In this document: positions 1,452 to 17,600 of the stretch, one piece after another
How positions within the stretch are numbered: the first letter of the stretch is position 1
Layout of the letters: every line of letters starts with the position of its first letter
NCBI RefSeq assembly: GCF_018413645.1
Contig: NZ_JAHCDA010000004.1
Span: 124,001 to 188,000, forward strand
Length of the DNA: 64,000 nucleotides
Direction of reading: 5' to 3'
From: Roseococcus pinisoli
GTDB taxonomy: Bacteria; Pseudomonadota; Alphaproteobacteria; Acetobacterales; Acetobacteraceae
Notes under the pieces: model-generated
Seen by the model: only the letters and a program-made list of their open reading frames with translations
Told to the model about the DNA's origin: nothing
The model's database searches: none
Program-made: the position numbers and the translations under genes

Positions 1452-2498
1452 ATGGACGTCCCGATGATCCGCCTCACCGAGCTCGCCCATGGCGGCGGCT
1501 GCGGCTGCAAGCTCGCCCCCTCCGTACTCCAGAGCCTGCTGGCAGACCAGCCGATGGCCGGCCCCTTCGCCCAGTTGCTTGTGGGCTCCGAGACCGCCGA
1601 CGACGCTGCGGTCTGGAAGGTGGATGACAACCTCGCCGTCATGGCGACGACCGACTTCTTCATGCCCATGGTCGACGATCCGGAGGATTTCGGCCGCATC
1701 GCCGCCACCAATGCGATCTCCGACATCTATGCCATGGGCGGCAAGCCGATCATGGCCCTGGCCATCCTCGGCATGCCCATCGGCAAGCTCGACCCCTCCG
1801 TGGTCCGGCGCATCCTGGCCGGCGGCGCGTCGATCTGCGCCGAGGCCGGCATCCCCGTGGCCGGCGGGCATTCCATCGACTGTCCCGAACCCGTCTATGG
1901 CCTGGCCGTGATCGGCCTCGGCCGGCCGGACCGCGTGCTGCGCAATACCGGTGCCCGGGCCGGGGACGCGCTGATCCTGACCAAGGGGATCGGCGTCGGC
2001 ATCTATTCGGCCGCCATCAAGAAGGGCCAGCTGCCCGAGGGCGCCTATGCCGAGATGATCGCCACCACGACCCTGCTGAACCGCGCGGGCGCGGAGCTCT
2101 CCGCCGACCCCGCGGTGCATGGCGTGACCGACGTCACGGGCTTCGGCATCCTCGGCCATGGGCTGGAGATGGCGCGCGGCTCGGGCCTGACCCTGCGCCT
2201 GCGGCAAGACGCGGTGCCCTTCCTGAAGCACGCGGAGGCGCTCGCGCAGCAGGGCTTCATCACCGGTGCCTCGCATCGCAACTGGGACAGCTATGGCCCC
2301 AGCATCGAGCTGCCCGCGGGATGCCCCGACTGGCAGCGCCTCCTGCTCGCCGATCCGCAGACCTCCGGCGGCCTGCTCATCGCCTGCGCGCCCGAGGCGG
2401 CGGAGGGAATGGTCGCGCGCCTCCAGGCCGGCGGCTACCCGCTGGCCCGGCGGATCGGCCGTGCCGAGGCAGGGCCGGCGCGCGTCGTGGTGGAGTGA
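1452..2498 (+). CDS. selD: Selenide, water dikinase SelD
   Basis: SelD makes selenophosphate from selenide and ATP, the selenium donor for selenocysteine and selenouridine. The 348-residue product has the usual length. The N-terminus carries the glycine-rich loop HGGGCGCK with Cys17, Cys19 and Lys20, matching the catalytic Cys and Lys of the E. coli enzyme; this SelD uses cysteine, not selenocysteine, there. Further on are the AIRS-like ATP-binding core ([18 protein letters not shown]) and a [13 protein letters not shown] segment. The ATG at 1452 follows a GGAGAA site; the ATG at 1464 would still keep the loop. It is the only selenocysteine gene of the window on the plus strand and lies about 5 kb from the selB end of the main cluster. 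Confidence 0.97.
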
Positions 2499-2947: not shown

Positions 2948-5900
2948 TCACCAGTTGAAGCGCACGGCCACCACGCCCTGCGTCGTCGAACGGCGCTCCC
3001 GCCCGTCCACGGACCAGCGGTGATCGATATGACCATAGAGGCTGGCCGTTTGCGTGATCCGGGCCGTGACGCCGACGCCGAGCTCGACCGAGGTATTGCC
3101 GAACCGGTTCTCGACCGCGGGTGACGCACCGAAGCTCGCGCGATCGGTGCCACCGAAGCCGTGCCAGAGATTGGCCTTGGCATAGGGCTGCCAGAGCGTG
3201 TTCGCATCGCGCGCGGTGTATTGCAGGCGCCCGCCGATCCGGCCGGTGACAGCGTCGTCCTCGTTCCAGCCGATCGTCGAATAGGCGTCCCGGCTGCGAT
3301 TGACCGAGACCGACTGATAAATGATCTGCGCCTGCGGCTCGAGCTGCCAGCGCTGGCTGAGGCGGAAGGGATAGCCGCCCTCCAGCGAGGCGGCGAAGCC
3401 AGAGCCGCTGGTGCTCATCCGTGCCTCGTAGAGCGACGTGGCCTTCGCATCGAACCAGTTCCCCTGGACCACCGCGTCCAGGTACCAGCCCGACGGTCCA
3501 AAATGGGTCCAGTAGGCGCCCACCGCCGGCCCGTTCAGCGTCAGGCGGCCAAGCCGAAGGTTCTGCTGGCCGAGCGCGAAGCCGCTGACATTGGAGGAGC
3601 GGTAGTCCGTATAGGCGACATAGAGGCCGACATGATCGCGATGGCCGTTGTCATGCTGGCTCCGATAGGCGTCGAAGCCCGCCTGTATCCCGACGAGGTT
3701 GGCATCGTTCACCCGGCTGTCGACCGTACCCGACCAGCGGCTGCTGCCGCGCTCGCCGATCAGGCGCATCCAGGTGCCGTTCGCGTAGCGGCGGGATTCT
3801 GGATTCTGCACGATGTTCATCTCCTCCCCGACCCGCTCATGCAGAGTGCCGAGGGTGGCGAGGCCCATGTGGCGCGCCATGGCCGGAATGGGCGCGTAGA
3901 GACCGACCTCGGGGCGGTAGAGCGGAATGACCGGGGGGGATGGGGGGGCAGGGTCGGTTGGCCCGATCGGCGGGGACGGCGGCCCCTGGACCAGGTTGGA
4001 GCGCAGGAACCAATCCTCCGCGCCGCTGCTTCCACCGCGGAACAGCCGGTATTCATAGGCGCCCGCCGTCACGCGACCAGCCAGGTTGAAGGCCCCCGGC
4101 TGCGTGGTCGCGCCATTCGTCGCCTGAACCAGACGGATGCCGTCAGCCAGCGTCAGCGCGCCGCCGCCGCCCGCATTCGTGACGGAAAGGGTCGTCGTGC
4201 CCGTCGCCGTGCCGCCCTTCACCACCAGGAGGTTGGTCGGCGAATTGTCGCTGCCGAGGACCGTGTTGAAGGCCATGCGCCCGCCCTGCCCGACATAGCT
4301 GCCGGTCGTCAGGCTCGAGAAGCCGCTGGCGAGGGGCGCGAACTGGATCAGGCCCGCATTGGTGACCGTGCCGGTCGCGTCGGAGGAGCCGGTGACGGTC
4401 CAGGCGCTGGCGCCATCCACACGAACATCGCCGGCATGCGTGGCCTGGCCGGTCCAGGCGCTGCCGAGCAGGTTGATATGGGCGGTATTGCCGGGAGCCG
4501 CGACGAGGTCGCCCGTCCAGTTGGTGGCATTGAAGGTCGCGTTCACGACGTTGTTCGCGCCGGTCACCGAAAAGATGCCGGCCACCCCGCCCAGGTTCGT
4601 CAGGTTGAGGGTCAGGTTGCTGGGCGCGGCGCCGCTGGTCACCGTGGCCAGGGCCAGGCGCCCGCCGACGAGGCCCGAGGAGATGGCGATGGGGCCGTTC
4701 AGCGAAATGTTCCCCGTCCCACCTTCGGCGAGAACGACCGGGCCCTGGCTCGAAGCCAGCGTCCCGCCGGTGACCGTCAGCAGGTTCGGCGCGGCCGAGG
4801 TGCCCCCCGCGATGTGAACGGCGGCCGCCCCGTTGCCCGACACCTGCGTCGCCACGTTCGACGCGGTCAGCGAGGCCCCATCCTGGGCGCTGAGGCCATG
4901 CGCAGAAGCGCCGGAGGTGGTCACGCTGCCGCTGTTCAAAACGACCGCGGACGCCGAGGCCACCGCGCCCAGCGCATTGGCACCCGAGGTGAGGATGGTC
5001 GTCCCCGTCGCCGCGAGATTGCCGCCAGCCTCGGCACGCACTCCCGTCGCGCCGATGCCGGAGGTGGTCACACTGCCGTTGTTCAGCGCGACCGTCGCCG
5101 CCGAGGCCACCGCGCCCAGCGCGTTATCCCCCAAGGTGCGGATGCTCGTCCCCGTCGCTGTGAGGTCGCCACTGCCCTCGGCGAGCACGCCCGTTGCCCC
5201 CGTCCCGGAGGTGGTCACGCTGCCATTGCTCAGCGCGACCGCCGCTCCCGAGGCCACCGCGCCCAGCCCATTGGCGCCCGAGGTGAGGATGGTCGTCCCC
5301 GTCGCCGTGAGATTGCCGCCACCCTCGGCACGCACGCCCGTGGCGCCGATGCCTGAGGTGGTCACGCTGCCATTGCTCAGAGCGACTGTGGCCGCCGACG
5401 CCACCGCGCCGAAGGCCGCGTCACCGGAGGTTCGAATGGTCGTCCCTGTCGCTGTGAGGTTACCGCTGCTCTCGGCGCGCACGCCCGTGGCGCCAAGACC
5501 GGAGGTGGTCACGCTACCACTGTTCAGAACGACCGCGGCCGCCGAGGCCACCGCGCCCAGCGCATTGGCGCCCGAAGTGACGATGGTCGTCCCCGCCGCT
5601 GTGAGATTGCCGCCGGTCTCAGCATGCACACCCGTGGCACCGAGGCCGGAGGTGGTCACGCTGCCGTTGTTCAGCGCGACCGTGGCCGCCGAGGCCACCG
5701 CGCCCAGCGCGTTATCCCCCGAGGTACGGATGTTCATTCCCGTCGCCGTGAGGTTGCCGCCACCCTCGGCACGTGCACCCGTGGCTCCCAGACCGGAGGT
5801 GGTCACGCTGCCGTTGTTCAGCGCGACCGTTGCCGCCGAGGCCACCGCGCCCAGCGCGTTGTCGCCCGAGGTAAGGATGGTCGTCCCCGTCGCCGTGAGA

Positions 5901-7237
5901 TTGCCGCCACCCTCGGCGCGAACGCCCGTGGCGCCCAGGCCGGATGTGGTCACGCTGCCGCTGTTCAGGACGATCGTGGCCGCCGAGGCCACCGCGCCCA
6001 GGGCGTTATCGCCCGAGGTAAGGATGGTCGTCCCCGTCGCCGTGAGGAGGCCGCCATTCTCGGCGCGCGCGCCCTGGGCGCCGGCGCCGTAAGTCCTGAT
6101 CGCACCGTTGGTGAGGTCGATCGACGCGCCGGCGCCGATGGCATAGGCGCCGTGCGCCCCCGCCCCCATGGTCGTGATCGGCACGTCCCGGGCGATGATG
6201 ATACCTTCGTTTGTGGCCCGGAGACCGCGGGAAGCGACGCCCAAGGTAAGGACAGAACCACCGGCGACGGTCACGCGGGTTCCCGCCTGGCTGGCGAAAA
6301 TGCCGTCCGATCCAGCGCCCCGCGTCTCGATCACGACGTTCGAGACCTCGATCTGCGAGGCGGTCCAGCCAGCAACGCCGTTGCCCACATCGCCTTCCGT
6401 CAGGAGAGAGCTGTCGGAAATGCTGATGATACCCGGACCTCCGGCGCTGACGACGGCGTCGCTCACCTCGCCCGTCATGTGGATCCGCATATTGGACGCC
6501 ACGATCTTGCTACCCTCATTGGCATAGAGCCCCCCGATTTCAGGGGCGGGGGAGTTGATCTCGCTGTTGGTGATCTCGATCCGGGAGCCAGTCCCCACGG
6601 CAAGAACGGTATGCGACATGCCGTCCACGCCGGAGGAGCTGAGCGTGAGCCCGTCACCAATGATCAGCCCCCCGCTCGACGCCAGAAGGGCTCCACCGAT
6701 ATTGCCGGCAGAAGCGACGGTCGCGTCGGTGATGGTGACGCGCGATCCGGCGCCGTCGGACACCACCCCGCTCGATTCTCCCGCCTGCGCATCGATCATC
6801 AGCCCGCGTGCCACGATCTGGCCGCCCGCCTCGGCACGGAGGCCATCAGCCCCTTGCGTCGTCACCGAGCCACCCGTCAGGTCGATGGTGCCCGGGCCGG
6901 CGGCGACAGCCCCTACCGCGTTCACGTTGCCGGTGGTGCTGATCGTGACGCCGATGCCCGTATAATCGCCGCCCGTCACACGGATGGCCGCGTCACTGGT
7001 GTTCTGGCGCGTCACGCCATTGTCCGTGCAGGAGCCGGAAGACATGTCGATAGCAGCCGGCGCGGCAGGGGAGCATTGCCCGTAGGCTATTTCCGGCAGA
7101 ATCAATGCCGTACTCAATAAGAGCGCCCCTCGAAGCCATTTTATTCCAGAGGCGCCGGAATCATGATCGATCCGCTCGACATCTGGATGACGGGTCGCAA
7201 GGGCAGCGGGCACGAGATCAAAGGAAATTCGGGACAC
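2948..7237 (-). CDS. Autotransporter (type V secretion) with tandem-repeat passenger
   Basis: About 1429 residues. A long N-region is followed by a hydrophobic signal (WLRGALLLSTALILPEIAYG) for Sec export. The passenger is Gly/Thr/Ala/Val-rich with eight 49-residue tandem units in its middle, fitting a beta-helix. The last 270 or so residues alternate in the manner of an outer-membrane beta-barrel and end in the aromatic sequence VAVRFNW, the usual barrel terminus. A proline-rich linker (PSPPIGPTDPAPPSPP) precedes the barrel. No ATG begins the frame. GTG at 7237 is chosen because GGGAG sits 6 nt upstream; a TTG at 7252 is possible. Function of the passenger (adhesion or other) is not shown by the sequence. 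It lies alone between selD and the Sec operon. Confidence 0.9.
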   Translation of the reverse strand: MSRISFDLVPAALATRHPDVERIDHDSGASGIKWLRGALLLSTALILPEIAYGQCSPAAPAAIDMSSGSCTDNGVTRQNTSDAAIRVTGGDYTGIGVTISTTGNVNAVGAVAAGPGTIDLTGGSVTTQGADGLRAEAGGQIVARGLMIDAQAGESSGVVSDGAGSRVTITDATVASAGNIGGALLASSGGLIIGDGLTLSSSGVDGMSHTVLAVGTGSRIEITNSEINSPAPEIGGLYANEGSKIVASNMRIHMTGEVSDAVVSAGGPGIISISDSSLLTEGDVGNGVAGWTASQIEVSNVVIETRGAGSDGIFASQAGTRVTVAGGSVLTLGVASRGLRATNEGIIIARDVPITTMGAGAHGAYAIGAGASIDLTNGAIRTYGAGAQGARAENGGLLTATGTTILTSGDNALGAVASAATIVLNSGSVTTSGLGATGVRAEGGGNLTATGTTILTSGDNALGAVASAATVALNNGSVTTSGLGATGARAEGGGNLTATGMNIRTSGDNALGAVASAATVALNNGSVTTSGLGATGVHAETGGNLTAAGTTIVTSGANALGAVASAAAVVLNSGSVTTSGLGATGVRAESSGNLTATGTTIRTSGDAAFGAVASAATVALSNGSVTTSGIGATGVRAEGGGNLTATGTTILTSGANGLGAVASGAAVALSNGSVTTSGTGATGVLAEGSGDLTATGTSIRTLGDNALGAVASAATVALNNGSVTTSGIGATGVRAEAGGNLAATGTTILTSGANALGAVASASAVVLNSGSVTTSGASAHGLSAQDGASLTASNVATQVSGNGAAAVHIAGGTSAAPNLLTVTGGTLASSQGPVVLAEGGTGNISLNGPIAISSGLVGGRLALATVTSGAAPSNLTLNLTNLGGVAGIFSVTGANNVVNATFNATNWTGDLVAAPGNTAHINLLGSAWTGQATHAGDVRVDGASAWTVTGSSDATGTVTNAGLIQFAPLASGFSSLTTGSYVGQGGRMAFNTVLGSDNSPTNLLVVKGGTATGTTTLSVTNAGGGGALTLADGIRLVQATNGATTQPGAFNLAGRVTAGAYEYRLFRGGSSGAEDWFLRSNLVQGPPSPPIGPTDPAPPSPPVIPLYRPEVGLYAPIPAMARHMGLATLGTLHERVGEEMNIVQNPESRRYANGTWMRLIGERGSSRWSGTVDSRVNDANLVGIQAGFDAYRSQHDNGHRDHVGLYVAYTDYRSSNVSGFALGQQNLRLGRLTLNGPAVGAYWTHFGPSGWYLDAVVQGNWFDAKATSLYEARMSTSGSGFAASLEGGYPFRLSQRWQLEPQAQIIYQSVSVNRSRDAYSTIGWNEDDAVTGRIGGRLQYTARDANTLWQPYAKANLWHGFGGTDRASFGASPAVENRFGNTSVELGVGVTARITQTASLYGHIDHRWSVDGRERRSTTQGVVAVRFNW
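4931..6106 (-). repeat. Eight tandem 147-bp units inside the autotransporter passenger
   Basis: The block shows exact 147-bp phase, with the landmark gagGTGGTCAC-type string at 4914, 5061, 5208, 5355, 5502, 5649, 5796 and 5943. Each unit encodes 49 residues following GSVTTSGLGATGVRAE, GGNLTATGTTILTSG, and NALGAVASAATVALNN with substitutions. The unit at 5960-6106 is the most divergent of the eight, and a degenerate ninth copy continues below 4931. There are no insertions or deletions between units. Confidence 0.9.
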
Positions 7238-7444
7238 GCTTTTCTCCCACAATATTCGCCGTTCCGGTCATATTCTGGTACATTCAAGTATATAATTTTC
7301 TTTAAAAGCAAATATTCCGGTAGTCGAATTTTGTGGAGAATGAAGATCTGAATTTCCGACAAAGGCACACCCCTGCCGTACGGAAGCGACGCCGGCCAGC
7401 CATTCTCGACAGGAAATGCGGGGCATGTCCGCTCAGCCGCGGCC
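7238..7444. promoter_or_regulatory. A+T-rich spacer upstream of the autotransporter
   Basis: The 207 nt between the autotransporter and the unknown gene at 7445 include a marked A+T-rich stretch (about 7268-7345, with TATATAATTTTC and TTTAAAAGCAAATATT) in otherwise G+C-rich DNA. It probably holds the autotransporter promoter on the minus strand. I could not pick a convincing -35/-10 pair; candidates such as TTCGAC with TTAAAG are weak. Low-G+C promoters of this kind are often targets of nucleoid silencing proteins, which is only an inference here. Confidence 0.4.
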
Positions 7445-7825
7445 TCAGGAGAGCTTCGTTTCTTCCAGAAGGAGGCGCAGGCCCTTCGAATTGAAGAACT
7501 CGCCGTCACGGATCAGCCTGCGATCCTCATGCAGCTTCCGCGTAAGGGCACCGAGGCGGGACCGCGCCTCGGAATCGGGCACCAGCCCCTCGCGCCCCGC
7601 CCGCCAGAAGACCACGCCCGACCAGCTCACCCCCGCCCCGGCGAAGAGCCGCGCCATCTCCGGCCAGCGCGTCTCGTCGCCCATCACATGCAGCCAGGCT
7701 CCGCGCAGCGGCGTCACGCTCGTCTCGCCGATCTCGACCAGCACGAAGAGCACGGTGAAATCCCCGGCCTCGCGATGGGTCGCGGTCAGCCATTCGTCGA
7801 AATCGGTGTCGATGTCGGGCCTCAT
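7445..7825 (-). CDS. Unknown protein at the 3' end of the Sec operon
   Basis: 126 residues, no signal peptide or membrane segment, mixed alpha/beta appearance. Segments such as FTVLFVLVEIGE and SWSGVVFWRAG suggest beta strands, and the C-terminus has FFNSKGLRLLLEE. No family was recognised. The chosen ATG at 7825 overlaps the stop of the selB frame as ATGA (7822-7825), and no ribosome site precedes it, so translation is probably coupled to ribosomes that have passed through the tRNA-Sec region. An upstream in-frame extension through the tRNA gene exists but is unlikely. The position suggests a link to selenoprotein synthesis or formate metabolism, but there is no direct evidence. Confidence 0.7.
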   Translation of the reverse strand: MRPDIDTDFDEWLTATHREAGDFTVLFVLVEIGETSVTPLRGAWLHVMGDETRWPEMARLFAGAGVSWSGVVFWRAGREGLVPDSEARSRLGALTRKLHEDRRLIRDGEFFNSKGLRLLLEETKLS

Positions 7826-9843
7826 GGGCGGGAGGTTGGCGGAAGAGAATGGGAGTCGAACCCACCCGGGACAGTCTCGCTGCCCCACCCGGATTTGAAG
7901 TCCGGACGCCCCACCGGGGACGACTCTCCTCCGAACAGGTCGACGCGGTGCGGATTGATCCGCCGCAGGTCGCCGCGACGCAAGGTTACGCCGTGGCGGT
8001 CGAGGAAATCCAGGATCTGGATCGCGACCTTGCGGCCGTTGTCCATGCGGTCGCGGAAGAGCGCCGCGGTGAACTCGCCGCCCTCACTGGTTGCGGCGAT
8101 GTCGATCGCGAACCCCACCATCTCGGCTGTGGTGGCGCGCAGAAAGAAATGGTCCTGCGCGATCTGGTCCAGCCGGCCGAGCCGCGCGCAGGCCTTCAGC
8201 AGGCGGCGGATCTCGGCCTCCGCCACGTCGAGCGTGCCCGCGAGGTCGCGCACGCGCGGCGGGCGGAACCGAGCCTCGCCGCCGAGCAGCGGCTCGATGC
8301 GGGCGTAGAGCGCCTCGTCGGCCGGATCGAGGCGGACCTCGTGGCCAGGCAGGCGCAGGAAGGCGCCCTCCAGCACGATCTCGCCGGCACGGGCCAGGCG
8401 CTCCAGCGCCGCCCGGAAGGCCGGGGCCGGAAGGCGCGGCTGGACCAGCATGCGCAGCCGCTCGCGGCCGAGGCCCTGCTGGTCCGCATTCTCCTCGTGA
8501 TAGCGCGCGAGCCCGGCGAGCAGGTTTTCGCGGAAGGCCGCCCAGCCTTCCTCGGAGAGCGTGAGGCGCGCCCCCTCCGCCTCGATGATCACGGCGCCCG
8601 AGGCCAGCGCCTCGGCCTCCGCAGGACCGAGCGCATGGTCGCGCGCGAAGGCGTTCAGCTCCACCTGATGCGGCGGGATGGCGAGGAGGCGCGCGAAGGC
8701 GCGGGCCGGCTCACGCTCCTGCAGGGCGTCCAACTGAGCGAGGCGCTCCGGCGTGCGCCGCTTTCTCGCGGGCGGCCTGAGATCCAGAAAGCGCCCGCCG
8801 CCGATGGTCCGCTGCGCCGAGACGTCGCGCAGGATGAAGCGGTCGCCCGCCGCCGCGGCGATGGGCCGGTCGAGCACCAGCTGCAACAGTCCGCGCCCTC
8901 CGGGCGCGACCGCCTCGCCCAGCGGCACGAGGCGCACGCCCACCTCCGCGCTGGCATGATGAAGCCGCGCGGGGAACCAGGCGCCGAGAGGCTTCGGCTC
9001 GCTCGCGAGGACGCGACAGGCGGCGTCGATCCGGTCGGTCGGCGCGTGCAGGGCGGGCGCGAGCACCATGTCGCCCCGCGCCACCGCCTCCTTCGAGATG
9101 TCGCGGCCGGCGATGTTCAGTGCGCAGCGCTGGCCGGAAAAGCCCCGCTCCGCCGGGCGGTTCTGCGCATGGAGGGAGCGCACCCGCGCCGCGATGCCGG
9201 AGGGGCTCACCACCACCTGGTCGCCCACCGCGACCGAGCCGGACAGCACCGTGCCGGTGACGACGGTGCCGGCGCCGGCCAGGGTGAAGCAGCGATCGAC
9301 GGCCAGGCGGAAGGCGCCCTGCCCGCTGGGCTCGGCCGTCGCCGCCTCGGCATAGGCCAGCGCCGCCTTCAGCGCCTCCATCCCCTGCCCCGTCTGCGCG
9401 GAGACGGGTAGGACCGGCGCCTGCGCCAGCGCGGTATCGGCCAGCAGCTCGTGCAGCTCGGCCGTGACCTCGGCGATGCGCTCGACATCGGCGAGGTCCG
9501 CCTTGCTCAGCGCCACCATCCCCCGGCCGACGCCGAGCAGGTCCAGGATGGCGAGATGCTCGCGCGTCTGGGGCATCACGCCGTCATCGGCAGCGACGAC
9601 CAGCAGCGCGAAGTCGATGCCGCTGGCGCCGGCCAGCATGGTGTGCACGAAGCGCTCATGCCCCGGCACGTCGACGAAGCCGATCACCCGCTCGCCATTG
9701 CCCTGCGGCATATAGGCGAAGCCGAGATCGACGGTGATGCCGCGCGCCTTCTCCTCCTTGAGGCGGTCGGTATCGACGCCGGTCAGCGCCTTCACCAGCG
9801 AGGTCTTGCCGTGGTCGATATGCCCCGCGGTGCCGACGATCAT
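7822..9843 (-). CDS. selB: Selenocysteine-specific elongation factor SelB
   Basis: A GTPase that binds Sec-tRNA-Sec and the SECIS hairpin. Seen: G1 GHIDHGKT, G2-region [13 protein letters not shown]3 DVPGHE, G4 LSKAD, domains 2-3, then the four winged-helix domains ending in [21 protein letters not shown], where the family normally ends. The reading frame continues about 35 more residues through the tRNA-Sec gene (…[11 protein letters not shown]…[10 protein letters not shown]) and stops at 7822-7824, overlapping the next gene as ATGA. Total 673 residues, 614 in E. coli. The ATG at 9843 overlaps the stop of the Sel1-repeat gene (ATGA). Whether the extra tail is made depends on competition with tRNA processing. 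Identity is certain; the natural C-terminus is not. Confidence 0.95.
7837..7932 (-). tRNA. selC: tRNA-Sec (anticodon UCA)
   Basis: A 96-nt gene with all marks of bacterial tRNA-Sec: an 8-bp acceptor stem (GGAGGAGA with TCTCTTCC, one G-U pair), an extended D arm, the anticodon stem-loop CCGGA-CTTCAAA-TCCGG with UCA in the loop, a long variable arm (GGGGCAGCGAGACTGTCCC region), a T arm with GGTTCGACTCC, discriminator G and an encoded CCA (7837-7839). The layout follows E. coli selC closely. It decodes the in-frame UGA of the formate dehydrogenase gene about 9 kb upstream in the same operon. The whole gene lies inside the 3' end of the selB open reading frame on the same strand. Confidence 0.97.
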
Positions 9844-10607
9844 CGCAGCGGCATCCCGGCGCGGCGCTCGGCTTCCTCGAGGCCGGCATCGTCCAGCGCG
9901 GCGCGCGCGGCCCCCAGGAAGGGGCGCGCCAGCCGGCTGCCGCCCGACTGCGCGCGCAGGAGCCAGGCCAGCGCCTCGACGGCATCGGGCTCGACACCCG
10001 TTCCCATGTGCAGCGCGGCGCCCAGCATGGCCTGGCCGTCGGCATCGCCCAGCTCGGCGCCCCGGCGCCACCAGGCGGCGGCCTTGGTGGGGTCACGCTC
10101 CACGCCCATCGCGTGGTGATAGAGCATGCCCAGCCGCGTCATCGAGGAGGCGATGCCGGCCTCGGCGGCGAGCAGCGCCCAGCGCCGCGCCTCCTCCGGA
10201 TCGGCGGGCATGACCTCGCCCTCCAGCAGCATCCAGCTGAACATGTCCTGGGCCAGCGCATCGCCCTGTTCAGCCGCGGCGCGGTAGAGCTTTTCCGCCC
10301 GCGCGGGATCGGGCTCCACCCCCTCGCCGCCACGCAGGTAGAGGGTGGCGAGGTTGCGCTGGCCCGGCGCGTAGCCGGCCTCGGCCGAGAGGGTGAGCCA
10401 TTTCAGCGCCAGGAGCGCATCCACCGGCACGCCCAGCCCCTCCACGAAGCAGCCGCCGATATTGGATTGCGCGCGGGCGTTTCCCGCCCGGGCCAGCGGC
10501 TCCCACAGCGCCAGGGCCGTGGCGTAGTCCCCTGCGCGGAAGGCGGCCATGGCCTCCTCCATGGGATCTGCGGTGGGCGCACGGCGAAGCCGGTCAAGCC
10601 AGGCCAC
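9840..10607 (-). CDS. Sel1-like repeat protein between selA and selB
   Basis: 255 residues with no signal peptide. It is built of about five to six Sel1-like (TPR-type) helical repeats of roughly 36 residues, for example [25 protein letters not shown]-like and [20 protein letters not shown]-like blocks, with the typical A-x-x-x-L-G-x-x-Y/L spacing. Such repeats bind proteins. The start overlaps the end of selA by 14 nt and the stop overlaps the selB start by 4 nt, so the three are probably translated as a coupled set. That placement suggests a helper of selenocysteine incorporation or of formate dehydrogenase assembly; this is inference. SLR proteins are common, so the assignment to the pathway rests on context only. 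Confidence 0.85.
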
Positions 10608-11964
10608 GAAGCGTCTCCAGGAAACCCGCCTCGTCCGTGAGGCAACGCAGGTCCAGCACCAGCGCGCCGTCCTGCATCCGGCCGATCACCGGCCGCTCCA
10701 GGCGGCGCAGCGCGGCGGCCAGCCCTTCCAGCTCCCGGCCGCGAAGCGCGATGAGGCGCAGGCCATGGCTCGGCAGCGTGTCGAGCGGCAGGGCGCCGGA
10801 GCCGATCTGGCTACGGCAGGCGCAGGTCTCGACCGCGAAGCCGGCGGGCAGCAGCGCGGCCACCGCCGGCGCCAGCCGCTGCGCCTGCGCGCCGATCCCG
10901 GCCGCGTCGCGCGCCAGGAAATGCAGGGTGGGCAGCCGCTCCGCCAGCCGGTCGGGATCGCGATAGAGCTTCAGCGTCGCCTCCAGCGCGGCGAGGCGCA
11001 GCTTGTCGACGCGGAGCGCGCGCTTCATCGGATTGCGGTTGATCGCCTCGATCAGGTCGCGCCGGCCGACGATGAAGCCCGCCTGCGGCCCGCCCAGCAG
11101 CTTGTCGCCCGAGAAGGTGACGATGTCCGCGCCCTCGGCGATCGCCTCGCGCACCGTCGGCTCCTTCGCGAGGCCCCAGCGCGAGAGGTCGACGAGCGTG
11201 CCGGAGCCGAGGTCGTTCAGCAGCGGTACCCCGGCCTCATGCGCGATGGCGGCCAGCGCCGCGCCGTCCACCTCGGCCGTGAAGCCCTCGATCCGGTAGT
11301 TCGAGGTATGGACCTTGAGCACGAGGCCCGTCTCCGGCCCCAGCGCGCCGCGATAATCCTTGGGGTGGGTGCGGTTGGTGGTGCCCACCTCCACAAGCTT
11401 CACGCCGGCGCGCGCCATGATGTCCGGCATGCGGAAGGCGCCGCCGATCTCGATCAGCTCGCCGCGGGAGACGATGGCCTCCCGCCCCGCGCCCAGGGAG
11501 TTGAGCGCGATGAGCACGGCCGCGGCGTTGTTGTTCACCAGCGTCGCGTCCTCGGCGCCGGTCAGCTCGCGCAGGAGCTCGCGCAGGTGATCGTCGCGCT
11601 CGCCGCGCCTTCCGGTGTCGAGCTCGAATTCCAGGGCCACGGCCTCGCGCATCGCCGCCGTCACGGCCTCGATGGCGGCCTCCGCCAGCACCGCGCGGCC
11701 GAGATTGGTGTGCAGCACCGTGCCGGTGAGGTTGAAGAGCGGCCGCAGCCGGGGGCGATAGCGCTCCGCGAGGCGATGCCCCACCGCCTCGGCCACCGCC
11801 TCGGCGTTGGGGAGCGGCGCCGAGGCGCCGGCACGCAGCTCGGCCAGCGTCGCGCGGATCGCGGCGGTGGCCTCCGCCCGGCCATGCCGCTCGATGGCCG
11901 GCCCGCACAGGCCCAGCACCCGGTCGACCGAGGGCAGGCCGCGAAGGTCGGGCTTGTCGGCCAT
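10594..11964 (-). CDS. selA: L-seryl-tRNA(Sec) selenium transferase SelA
   Basis: A PLP enzyme that converts Ser-tRNA-Sec to Sec-tRNA-Sec using selenophosphate. The 456-residue length fits the family. The PLP lysine lies in [14 protein letters not shown] (Lys288; Lys295 in E. coli). Also seen are [15 protein letters not shown] near residue 77, NNNAAAV near 144 and [12 protein letters not shown] near 249, all family landmarks. The ATG at 11964 is 2 nt after the fdhE stop, and the 3' end overlaps the Sel1-repeat gene. All selenocysteine factors except SelD are in this operon. Confidence 0.97.
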
Positions 11965-11966
11965 GG

Positions 11967-12887
11967 TCAGTAGCCGATCAGGAAGGGGCTGAAGCCGGCG
12001 CGGCGGTAGTCGGTCTCCCGCATCAGCAGGTCGAGGCCCAGGCTGGCGACGTCATCCGCCACGCATTCCAGGGAGGGGTTGCGGTTCTGGTAGAGGATCT
12101 TCACCCAGCTGCGGCAGGCATCGCAGGTCTCGGCCTTGATGGAGGCGTCCTCCTCCCCCTCGGCCGATTTGTAGCCGATGCCCTTGGTCGAGCCGCAGGC
12201 CAGGCACTTGATGCGGACCTCGTTCCAATGCGTGCCGCAGAAGGCGCAGCCGACATAGCGCACATTCTCCGTGCCCAGCCGCCCCGAGACGATGGAGGCC
12301 ACCGGCGGCCCGCCGCAGACGGGGCAGAGCCCGGTCTCGACGGGCACCAGCAGCGCCGGATCCAGCGAGGAGGCCAGGCGTGCGGCATGAACCTGCATCG
12401 CGGCCGAGAGGAAGAGGTGCGGCGACAGCGCCTCGAAGGGAATGGAGTCAGCAAGCACATTGCCGATCACCTCGTCGAGGATCTCGGCGGGTGCGCGGCG
12501 CAGCGCCTCCAGCCCCTCCGCGGCCTGCGCCGGCATGTCGAGCGTCGGGGCCTCATCGAGGAAGCGGGCGATGACCTCCCGCAGCTCCGCCGATTTCTCC
12601 AGCAGCTTGCGGTCGAGCGGCGGCATCTTTCCGGCCCGCGCGCGCTCCACCTGCTCGGGCGGGATCGGCGTGGCGGGCGGCAGGGCGGCGGCCAGCCGGG
12701 ACTGCAGTGCCGACAGCGCCGAAAGGAATCGCAGATAGGGCGCGAGCTGGCTGCTTTCCGCCAGCTCCGCGAAGCGCTCGGCACGGCCGGAGAACAGGCC
12801 CGCCGGCTCGGGCAGGACGGCGAAGGGGGGCCTGACGATGCGCCCGATCATGGAGGGATCGGGCTGTAATCCTGAGAAACCGGACAT
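11967..12887 (-). CDS. fdhE: Formate dehydrogenase accessory protein FdhE
   Basis: FdhE is a cytoplasmic iron-binding factor needed for activity of exported respiratory formate dehydrogenases. The 306-residue product shows the family's C-terminal cysteine pairs: [22 protein letters not shown] and CDACRSW, which coordinate metal. The N-terminal half is helical. It lies 40 nt after the cytochrome b subunit gene and 2 nt before selA. The ATG at 12887 has a GAGGTTCC stretch upstream as a modest ribosome site. Confidence 0.95.
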
Positions 12888-14636: not shown

Positions 14637-17600
14637 GACACGACTCCCGGCGGCGTTGTGGGTTCGATGTTGACGAGGAACGCCTTGAAGCCTGGCGTCT
14701 CGATATTCGCGTCACCCACGAAGGGCGACAGCGTATTGGCGTTGAAGCCCTTCCGCGCGGCGCCGGTGAAGCCCCAGTGGATCGGGATGCCGACCACATG
14801 GACCACGCGCCCGCCGTCGCAATGCAGCGGCTGGATGCGCCGCGTCACCACGGCCTTCGCCTTCACCGAGCCGCGCTTGGACCAGACGCGCACCCAGCCG
14901 CCCCCGGTGATGCCCCGCATGGCCGCGAGCTCATGCGAGATCTCGACGAAGAACTCCGGCTGCAGGGCCGCATTCACCCTGTTGTGCTTGGTCCAGTAGT
15001 GGAAGTGCTCCGTGAGGCGGTAGCTCGTCGCCGCGAAGGGGAATTCCTCCGAATTGCCGAAGCGCGCCACGTCGCTCTCGAAGATGCGCGCCACCGGGTT
15101 GCCGCGCATCCTGGGGTTCAGGACGTTCGGCACCGGGCTCTCGAAGGGCTCCATATGCGCGGGGAAAGGCCCGTCCCGCATCATGCCGCGCGTGAAGAGG
15201 CGCGAGCTGCCCTCCTGGTTCATGATGAAGGGCATGACCTGGTCGGGTCGCGCCGTCGGTGCGATGTCCGGCACGTCGTAGCCGGTCCATTGGGTCCCGT
15301 TCCACTCGAGCAGCTTGCGGGACGGATCCCAGGGCTTGCCCTGCAGGTCGGCCGAGGCGCGGTTGTAGAGCGTGCGCCGGTTGAGCGGCCAGGCGAAGGT
15401 CCAGTTGGGATAGACGCCCACCCCGTCCGGATCCTCGGTTCCGCGGCGTGCCATGTTGTTGCCCGCCTCGTTGAAGCAGCCGGAATAGATCCAGCAGCCG
15501 GACATGGTGGAGCCGTCGTCCCGCAGCTGGGAGAAGTTCACCACCTGCTTGCCGGCCTGGACCAGCACCTTCGACGGATCGGCCGGATCGGTGAGGTCGA
15601 CGAGCGCGCGCCCGTTGATCTCCTTCGCCAGCTCCTCCGGCGTCGGCTGGTTGGGATCCTCGTATTGCCAGGAGAGGTTGAAGATCGGATCCGGGAAGGC
15701 GCCGCCCTCCTTGCGGTAGAGCTCCCTCATCCGCAGGAAGATCTGCGACATGATCCAGACGTCGTTGCGGGCCTCGCCGGGCGGCGTCGCCGCCGGCCAG
15801 AACCACTGCAGCCAGCGGCCGGAATTGGTCAGCGAGCCCTCATCCTCGGCGAAGCAGCTGGTGGGCAGCTGGATCACCTCGGTGCGAATGCTCGCCGGGT
15901 TCACGTCGTTGTACTCGCCGTGATTCTCCCAGAAGCGCGACGTCTCCGTCTCCAGCGGGTCCATGGTGACGAGGAATTTGAGCTTCGACAGCGCCGAGGT
16001 GGACTTGCCGCGATCCGGGAAAGCCATCAGCGGGTTGAAGCCCTGGCAGATATAGCCGTTCACCCGCCCCTGGTTCATCAGCTCGAACATCCGCAGGATG
16101 TCGTAGGACGGTACGTCGAGCTTCGAGAGGTAGTCGTAGCACCAGTCGTTCTCGGCCGTGGCGGCTTCGCCCCACATGGCCTTCTGGAAGCTCACCATGA
16201 ACTTCGGATAGTTCTGCCAGTAGCTGGTCTGGCCCGGCCGCAGCGGCTTGAACTGCCGCGACTTCATGTAGGTCGCGTAGTCGGTCTCCGCCTCGGTCGG
16301 CATGTTCAGGTAGCCGGTGAGCAGGTGCGACATCAGGCCCATATCGGTCAGGCCCTGGATGTTCGAATGGCCGCGCAGCGCGTTCATGCCGCCGCCGCGC
16401 ACGCCGATATTGCCCAGGATGAGCTGGAGCATCGCCATGGCGCGGATGTTCTGCGAGCCGTGCGAATGCTGCGTCCAGCCGAGCGCGTACATCGACGTCA
16501 TGGTCTTCGTCGGCGTCGAGCATTCGGAGATCATCTGCGCGACGTGCAGGAACTTGTCCTGCGGCGTGCCGCAGATGCGCTGCACCATCTCGGGCGTGAA
16601 GACCGAGACGTGCTGCTTCAGCAGGTTCCAGACGCAGCGCGGGTGCTGCAGCGTCTCGTCCACGCGGGCGAAGCCGTCCTCGCCCATCTCGTAGTCCCAG
16701 CTCGTCCGGTCGTAGTCGCGCTTCTCCTCGTCATAGCCGGAGAAAAGGCCGTCGCTGTAGGAGAAGCCTTCCTTCACGATGAAGGAGGCGTTGGTGAAGG
16801 CCTTGGTGTACTCCCACTGCACGCGGTCGTTCTGGATGCAGTAGTTGATCACCCCCAGCAGGAAGGCGATGTCCGAGCCCTGGCGGATCGGCGCGTAGTA
16901 GTCCGCGACCGAGGCCGTGCGCGTGAAGCGCGGGTCCACGACGATCAGCTTCGCGCCGCGGTGGGCCTTCGCCTCCGTGACCCATTTGAAGCCGCAGGGA
17001 TGCGCTTCCGCCGCATTGCCGCCCATGACGACAACGAGATCGGTGTTGCGAATGTCGGTCCAGGAGTTGGTCATCGCTCCACGGCCAAATGTCGGGCCCA
17101 AACTGGACACCGTGGGGCCGTGTCAGACGCGCGCCTGGTTATCGAATCCTACAATGCCGAGCGTCTTGGCGACCTTGAAGGTCGTCCAGGCCGTCTCGTT
17201 GGTGGTGGCCGAGGCCGCGAGCATGCCGGTGGTCGTCCAGCGGTTCACGGTGACGCCGGCCTGGTTGCGGGCGATGAAGTTCGCGTCGCGATCGTCCTTC
17301 ATCAGGCGCGCGATCCGATCCAGCGCCTGGTCCCAGCTGATCCGCTCGAAGCGGTCCGAGCCGGGGCGGCGGAGCATCGGATAGCGGAGGCGCGTTTCCG
17401 ACTTCACGAAGTCCTTCAGCGCCGCGCCCTTGGGGCAGAGCGTGCCGAGGTTCGTGGGGTGGTCCGCATCGCCTTCGACGTGCAGGAGCTCGGCATGCTC
17501 CCCCTTCCGGACGTCGCCGCGCGAATACAGGATCACGCCGCAGGCGACCGAGCAGTAGGTGCAGGTGTTTCGCGTCTCGGTGGTGTTCACCAACTTGAAG

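Follow-up and report, generated by a model that had tools for sequence, protein, structure and literature searches.

In Roseococcus pinisoli the gene for the selenocysteine tRNA (selC, tRNA-Sec) lies wholly inside the reading frame of selB, and that frame runs on to overlap the start of the next gene. Is the open frame across the tRNA simply a consequence of a stop-free sequence, or is it kept, and what might it serve? We approached this question through a window of 64,000 nucleotides (the whole stretch of R. pinisoli DNA analysed, numbered from its first letter) and through related loci from other genomes.

A tRNA gene within the selB frame

The locus is made up of the following elements.

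7822–9843, minus strand: selB, selenocysteine-specific elongation factor, 673 amino acids (NCBIfam TIGR00475)
7837–7932, minus strand: selC, tRNA-Sec (UCA), 96 nt including the encoded CCA, entirely within selB (Rfam RF01852, ARAGORN)
7825–7836, minus strand: 12-nt tail from the tRNA 3′ end to the selB stop codon, its final base being the A of the ORF2 ATG
7822–7825, minus strand: ATGA, 4 nt shared by the selB stop and the ORF2 start (ORF2 ATG, 7825–7823)
7445–7825, minus strand: ORF2, sel-operon-linked conserved protein, 126 amino acids (no Pfam or NCBIfam match)

The selB frame starts at an ATG (9843–9841) and extends for 673 codons to a TGA (7824–7822). Its product matches TIGR00475 with 422 bits (cut-off 242) over residues 1–628 and has the winged-helix domains PF09106, PF09107 and PF21214 of Pfam; against the nearest SelB of solved structure, the alignment extends to residue 625. 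The closest SelB relatives are those of Roseococcus sp. SYP-B2431 (86%) and a Rubritepida metagenome-assembled genome (MAG; 84%). The last residue of the conserved core is F637 (...RVDLF), and 36 further codons precede the TGA. This 36-residue C-terminal extension consists of the codons of the tRNA-Sec sequence plus 12 nt. Nucleotide 1 of the tRNA (7932) is the first position of a selB codon and the linker between SelB and the tRNA is 0 nt long, such that the extension opens with Gly (GGA, 7932–7930) and its tRNA part closes with Pro, encoded by the CCA of the tRNA (7839–7837). An earlier note on this DNA had described a selB frame that continues past the core, crosses the complete tRNA-Sec gene and ends in ATGA with the next gene; our analysis confirms this over 36 codons, and the R. 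pinisoli genome has no stop after VDLFG, the point at which a shorter SelB would have spoken against that description.

The tRNA itself is recognized by the RF01852 covariance model at 81.4 bits (gathering cut-off 47; 7932–7841) and by ARAGORN (7933–7837, anticodon TCA). There are 12 other RF01852 matches in the genome, all at or below 52 bits: seven, checked with ARAGORN, are tRNA-Ser, Gly, Leu or Tyr, and the remaining five score at most 35.6 bits. The gene at 7837–7932 is the sole tRNA-Sec found in the R. pinisoli genome. When it is folded with about 20 nt on each side, the minimum-energy structure is not a cloverleaf, and its stability does not exceed that of shuffled sequence (z +1.3); the centroid fold retains the acceptor, D, anticodon and variable arms. 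We also considered an RNA switch in which GGGUGGG of the tRNA T-arm pairs with CCCGCCC before the ORF2 ATG, and rejected it because relatives have not conserved the tail sequence.

The sel operon and its surroundings

Upstream of selB and elsewhere in the window lie further genes and elements of selenocysteine metabolism or of the same operon.

9840–10607, minus strand: Sel1-repeat protein gene (Pfam PF08238), with an ATGA overlap with the selB start
10594–11964, minus strand: selA, L-seryl-tRNA(Sec) selenium transferase (TIGR00474, 572 bits)
17070–17128, minus strand: SECIS element (RF01989), with an in-frame UGA at 17125–17123 in the context ARVUHGPT
1470–2399, plus strand: selD, selenophosphate synthase (TIGR00476, 420 bits; contig positions 125470–126399)

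On the minus strand the order is a gene at 12887–11967, which we take to be fdhE-like, then selA, the Sel1-repeat gene, selB and ORF2, with gene ends that overlap or nearly touch. The selenocysteine system of R. pinisoli looks complete, because a SECIS element and UGA codon lie nearby, in what is presumably a formate dehydrogenase-like protein, and selD is present on the other strand. Downstream of ORF2, a long repetitive ORF of 1434 amino acids with a TTG start occupies 2948–7252 of the minus strand and has the look, we assume, of an autotransporter adhesin. Between it and ORF2 the G+C content falls to 54% (7000–7499), as against 67% and 70% in the adjoining 500-base stretches.

Nesting is conserved in some relatives and dispensable

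We examined 193 loci (L001, L009–L056 and L059–L202), 192 of which have a tRNA-Sec by ARAGORN (L201 has none and was dropped) and 180 of which are distinct, 12 having been left out as repeats with 650 identical bases around the tRNA; L057 and L058, with weak SelB matches and no tRNA-Sec, were also dropped. In 73 of the 180 no SelB was found just upstream on the same strand, the flanks retrieved being short and a number of contigs breaking off there. The other 107 have SelB directly upstream on the same strand, and its stop codon precedes the tRNA at 66 loci, lies within the tRNA at 19 and comes after it at the 22 nested ones. A further 14 loci (L203–L216) comprise one nested case (L205), one with the stop inside, three with the stop before and nine without SelB upstream. 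Stops inside the tRNA cluster at nucleotide 46 (12 loci: the Dyella/Luteibacter type, Tardiphaga, one Acetobacteraceae with TAG, and others), nucleotide 54 (four loci) and nucleotide 20 (three loci). Nesting is not essential, given that selB stops ahead of the tRNA in 66 of the 107 loci and within it in 19.

A frameshift in relatives that removes the extended frame had been named beforehand as evidence against this reading of the nesting, and earlier stops and frame shifts do occur: selB stops earlier in 66 of the 107 loci and overlaps the tRNA in another frame in seven (three from Ancylobacter and the four with stops at nucleotide 54). No ORF2 homologue was found in the flanks of any of those seven.

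The frame, rather than the peptide, appears to be kept

The R. pinisoli tRNA-Sec gene has no stop in any of its three forward frames. Because all three are stop-free, as they are in 19 of the 22 nested loci, an open frame across tRNA-Sec is no evidence of coding by itself; among the 66 loci with an earlier selB stop, the frame from nucleotide 1 of the tRNA is open in 31, and all three frames are open in 17. Composition gives no sign of coding either. GC by codon position is.73/.44/.86 in the SelB core,.74/.66/.69 in pooled linkers and.72/.75/.66 in pooled tails, which thus show no core-like bias, although the pools are small, with 171 and 154 codons, and the tRNA part does not lend itself to this kind of test. 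Linker and tail sequences are also not conserved among nested loci. As linker and tail lack a protein-coding signature, it seems to be the frame, and not the extension peptide, that is kept.

What does rise above chance is the conservation of phase among relatives. In each of the 22 distinct nested loci the selB frame meets the tRNA in phase 0, through 10 different linker lengths of 0–45 nt that are all multiples of three, and L205, a 23rd nested locus, does likewise. In the 47 stop-before loci whose SelB match extends to the end of the core, linker length modulo 3 is 0, 1 and 2 in 11, 14 and 22 cases, these linker counts leaving out 20 of the 107 loci in which the SelB match falls short of residue 636. 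We then counted linker changes, with each linker taken to begin where the SelB match ends, by unordered parsimony on a midpoint-rooted FastTree phylogeny of SelB from 99 of the 107 loci (SelB match extending to residue 627 or further, no stop, length of 200 amino acids or more). For each count the tree was first cut down to the tips of the group in question. The nested tips (22) require at least 11 changes of linker length, none of them frame-changing. The frame changed in 8 of 12 linker changes in the Dyella-type clade (23 tips), in whose flanks no ORF2 was found, and in 24 of 31 among other stop-before loci (37 tips, with linkers no longer than 124 nt). With changes treated as independent, and with minimal counts from a non-random sample, Fisher's p is 0.0013 for nested against Dyella-type loci and 7e-6 against the other stop-before loci, and 0 of 11 has a probability of 6e-6 under a one-in-three rule; lineages that shift frame and then meet a stop, such as Ancylobacter and the nucleotide-54 loci, fall outside the nested set by definition.

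The register extends to the downstream gene. Wherever ORF2 adjoins a nested locus its start overlaps the selB stop (16/16; 15 ATGA and one TGATG). The distance from the tRNA to the ORF2 ATG is 8, 11, 14, 23, 26 or 44 nt, and none of the seven changes in it inferred by parsimony is out of register. Where ORF2 follows the tRNA at a short distance (19 loci, listed by hand, 8 to 44 nt), linker phase is 0 in 17, compared with 27 of 68 others. The earlier note had proposed comparing selB–selC spacing in related genomes, and this comparison supports the nested structure and its coupling to the next gene, the frame entering the tRNA in phase 0 in 22 of 22 loci and overlapping the downstream start in 16 of 16.

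Individual loci show that the association is not strict. ORF2 lies 1.4–2.3 kb away in L012 and L018, which are still nested and whose selB ends at an unrelated TAG, and no ORF2 was recognized in the nested L014, L021, L064 and L145. In L019 ORF2 has moved away and the selB stop precedes the tRNA. The stop also precedes the tRNA in L061 and L092, yet both have an ORF2 homologue close behind it, that of L092 being distant (33% identical). In L011 selB stops inside the tRNA and a long reverse-strand ORF ends 11 nt past it; L098 (genome G395), identical around the tRNA, has ORF2 about 4 kb off. Overall, the comparisons make a modest case that the tRNA-crossing frame is kept where ORF2 follows directly.

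ORF2 is conserved and linked to the sel operon

We named ORF2 from its position and the Roseomonas context, not from a sequence match to ORF1 or ORF2 of Mukai 2021. The protein is conserved (20-sequence alignment), and its structure model is a confident alpha/beta fold (pLDDT 90). The window protein has no match in Pfam or NCBIfam, Pfam searches of 19 relatives gave only weak, scattered and unconvincing matches (E of 0.015 or more), an ORF2 profile has no match among PDB sequences at E ≤ 1, and Foldseek has none for the model at E ≤ 0.001. Within the fetched flanks, a homologue lies downstream in 23 of the 107 loci with SelB directly upstream of tRNA-Sec. A search of 60 relatives returned six matches. 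Five are strong, and every one of these comes from a genome with tRNA-Sec; the genome behind the sixth, weak match (E 7e-4) has none. No Shine–Dalgarno-like sequence precedes ORF2 in R. pinisoli (anti-SD pairing energy +1.9). In relatives, coupled ORF2 starts average −4.0 kcal/mol compared with −2.0 for base-shuffled sequence, and some starts do carry SD-like sequence, 4 of 16 being at or below −6.

A probable single message with two fates, and the alternatives

We think that the locus is probably best explained, as a whole, by a single message with a tRNA-crossing frame that serves the restart on ORF2 and with two mutually exclusive transcript fates. The anatomy and the conservation of the frame up to ORF2 in relatives are direct observations. 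We infer the single transcript, the coupling, the excision of the tRNA from that transcript and an effect on the ratio of SelB to tRNA-Sec. One sel-operon message would give both tRNA-Sec and SelB. With the SelB frame extended across the tRNA gene, ribosomes would end SelB at ATGA and restart on ORF2, a gene that in R. pinisoli lacks a Shine–Dalgarno-like site of its own. A transcript translated whole would yield SelB with its 36-residue tail and then ORF2; one from which the tRNA is cut out by RNase P and 3′ processing would be left as a stop-less SelB message and a separate ORF2 message whose leader measures 11 nt. The idea that a transcript may give either tRNA or a full message follows from known tRNA processing and is the hypothesis put forward in Mukai 2021. 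The least certain step is a homeostatic effect on SelB relative to tRNA-Sec. Several observations count against this account: nesting is dispensable; L012 and L018 keep the frame with ORF2 at a distance, and L014, L021, L064 and L145 with none recognized; selB stops before the tRNA in L061 and L092 despite an ORF2 homologue nearby; some coupled ORF2 starts carry SD-like sequence; and the minimum-energy fold of the flanked tRNA is not a cloverleaf. More tentative than this account as a whole, and in our judgement somewhat doubtful, is the idea that selection holds the tRNA-crossing frame as the ribosome's route to ORF2, so that one cut at the tRNA silences SelB and ORF2 together. If true, ORF2 would be a partner in the selenium pathway, its dose tied to uncut messages.

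A rather unlikely alternative is that selC has its own promoter inside selB, making tRNA supply independent of the operon message and leaving the frame to serve ORF2 translation only. As the linker is 0 nt, any such promoter would have to sit in coding sequence. A sigma-70 consensus search of 7300–8400 found no promoter-like site ahead of tRNA-Sec, although promoters of the host group need not fit that consensus. Synonymous-site conservation before the tRNA, which a promoter might impose, was likewise absent: in a weak test over the last 20 core codons of 16 nested Acetobacteraceae-type loci, conservation at fourfold sites was not raised (0.575 and 0.603 versus 0.568; Dyella-type control, 0.567 and 0.633 versus 0.526). 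The separate selC promoter that the earlier note had listed against its own reading was therefore found by neither search, both being weak tests.

The nesting might instead be a passive by-product, selC having landed at the end of selB, where a stop-free tRNA lets the frame run on and nothing depends on it. The openness of 19 of the 22 nested tRNA-Sec genes in all three frames, the lack of codon-position GC bias in linker or tail and the absence of full nesting in 85 of the 107 loci with SelB just upstream are all consistent with this, but it predicts neither the 0 of 11 frame-changing linker changes nor the 16 of 16 ORF2 overlaps, and we consider it unlikely. Very unlikely, finally, is a functional SelB C-terminal tail that binds RNA or stabilizes the protein. 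The tRNA-encoded part is indeed highly similar among nested loci, and Mukai 2021 (PMC8124441) noted that the extension may matter in Roseomonas without a clear tRNA remnant; the similarity is, however, accounted for by tRNA conservation, linker and tail are unconserved and without a coding signature, alignment with the nearest SelB of solved structure goes no further than residue 625, short of the extension, and the full extension is missing from 85 of 107 relatives.

Relation to previous work

The earlier note had left open whether such nesting with a coupled downstream gene had been described; it is already in print. Mukai 2021 (Int J Mol Sci 22:4605, PMC8124441) reported that selB contains a whole tRNA-Sec gene in a range of Alphaproteobacteria, Rhodospirillales and Roseomonas among them, with a selB stop that overlaps the next start, tRNAs of 96 or 93 nt, remnants and losses, as well as partial overlaps in Dyella and Luteibacter. 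The same paper hypothesized that processing of the tRNA turns the SelB transcript into a nonstop message and puts the following ORF on a leaderless one. Both the nesting and the homeostasis idea are restated in reviews of 2022 and 2026. The R. pinisoli locus shares with the published cases a whole selC in the selB ORF, an extension that starts with Gly (GGA) and whose tRNA part ends with Pro (CCA), a 96-nt tRNA, the stop/start overlap with the next ORF and the model of exclusive tRNA or SelB production; nothing essential differs, the linker here being 0 nt. A tRNA-Lys nested in cox1 of Armadillidium vulgare mitochondria, as cited in PMC8124441, also lies wholly within a protein frame of the same direction, and the account given there hypothesizes that its processing competes with the message; unlike R. 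pinisoli, it concerns a compact mitochondrial genome and an unrelated gene pair. The nesting is thus real, conserved and already known, and both the observation and the processing inference are a rediscovery. In the available parts of the literature on nested tRNA-Sec we found no experimental test of the tRNA-excision switch.

Frame-change counts and the comparison with loci lacking ORF2 go beyond the text of Mukai 2021 (PMC8124441). The new element is modest: judging from the loci compared, the frame through the tRNA appears to be kept where the next gene adjoins. Such a result lifts the nesting above an annotation curiosity and directs attention to ORF2, which is conserved and has no assigned function. 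A tRNA that is read both as RNA and as codons would force a choice on every transcript, and nesting could in this way balance SelB against tRNA-Sec without a regulator.

Other configurations of selB and tRNA-Sec

Several loci in the survey are unusual in their own right. In L014 (Pararoseomonas baculiformis), the nested tRNA near 4436–4531 has the anticodon loop CGTCACG, compared with CTTCAAA in relatives; the customary T preceding the anticodon has been lost, no ORF2 was recognized downstream, and this is possibly a decaying tRNA. The SelB of L023, a Candidatus Eremiobacteraeota MAG, is placed within the Dyella-type clade, reflecting either transfer or a wrongly binned contig. In L067, from an alphaproteobacterium, selB stops in an ATGA just before the tRNA, and a small frame from that ATG reads across the tRNA in phase 0 to a stop on its far side. 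Four loci from one genus of R. pinisoli's family (L147, L153, L166 and L188) end selB in another frame at nucleotides 54–56 of the tRNA with TAA, TGA, TGA and TAG, respectively, so the stop is kept at one place while its codon varies. In Ancylobacter (L031, L040 and L054) selB stops in another phase at nucleotides 20–22, with the TGA in the D-arm sequence GGTGAGG, which is a further type of partial selB/tRNA-Sec overlap.
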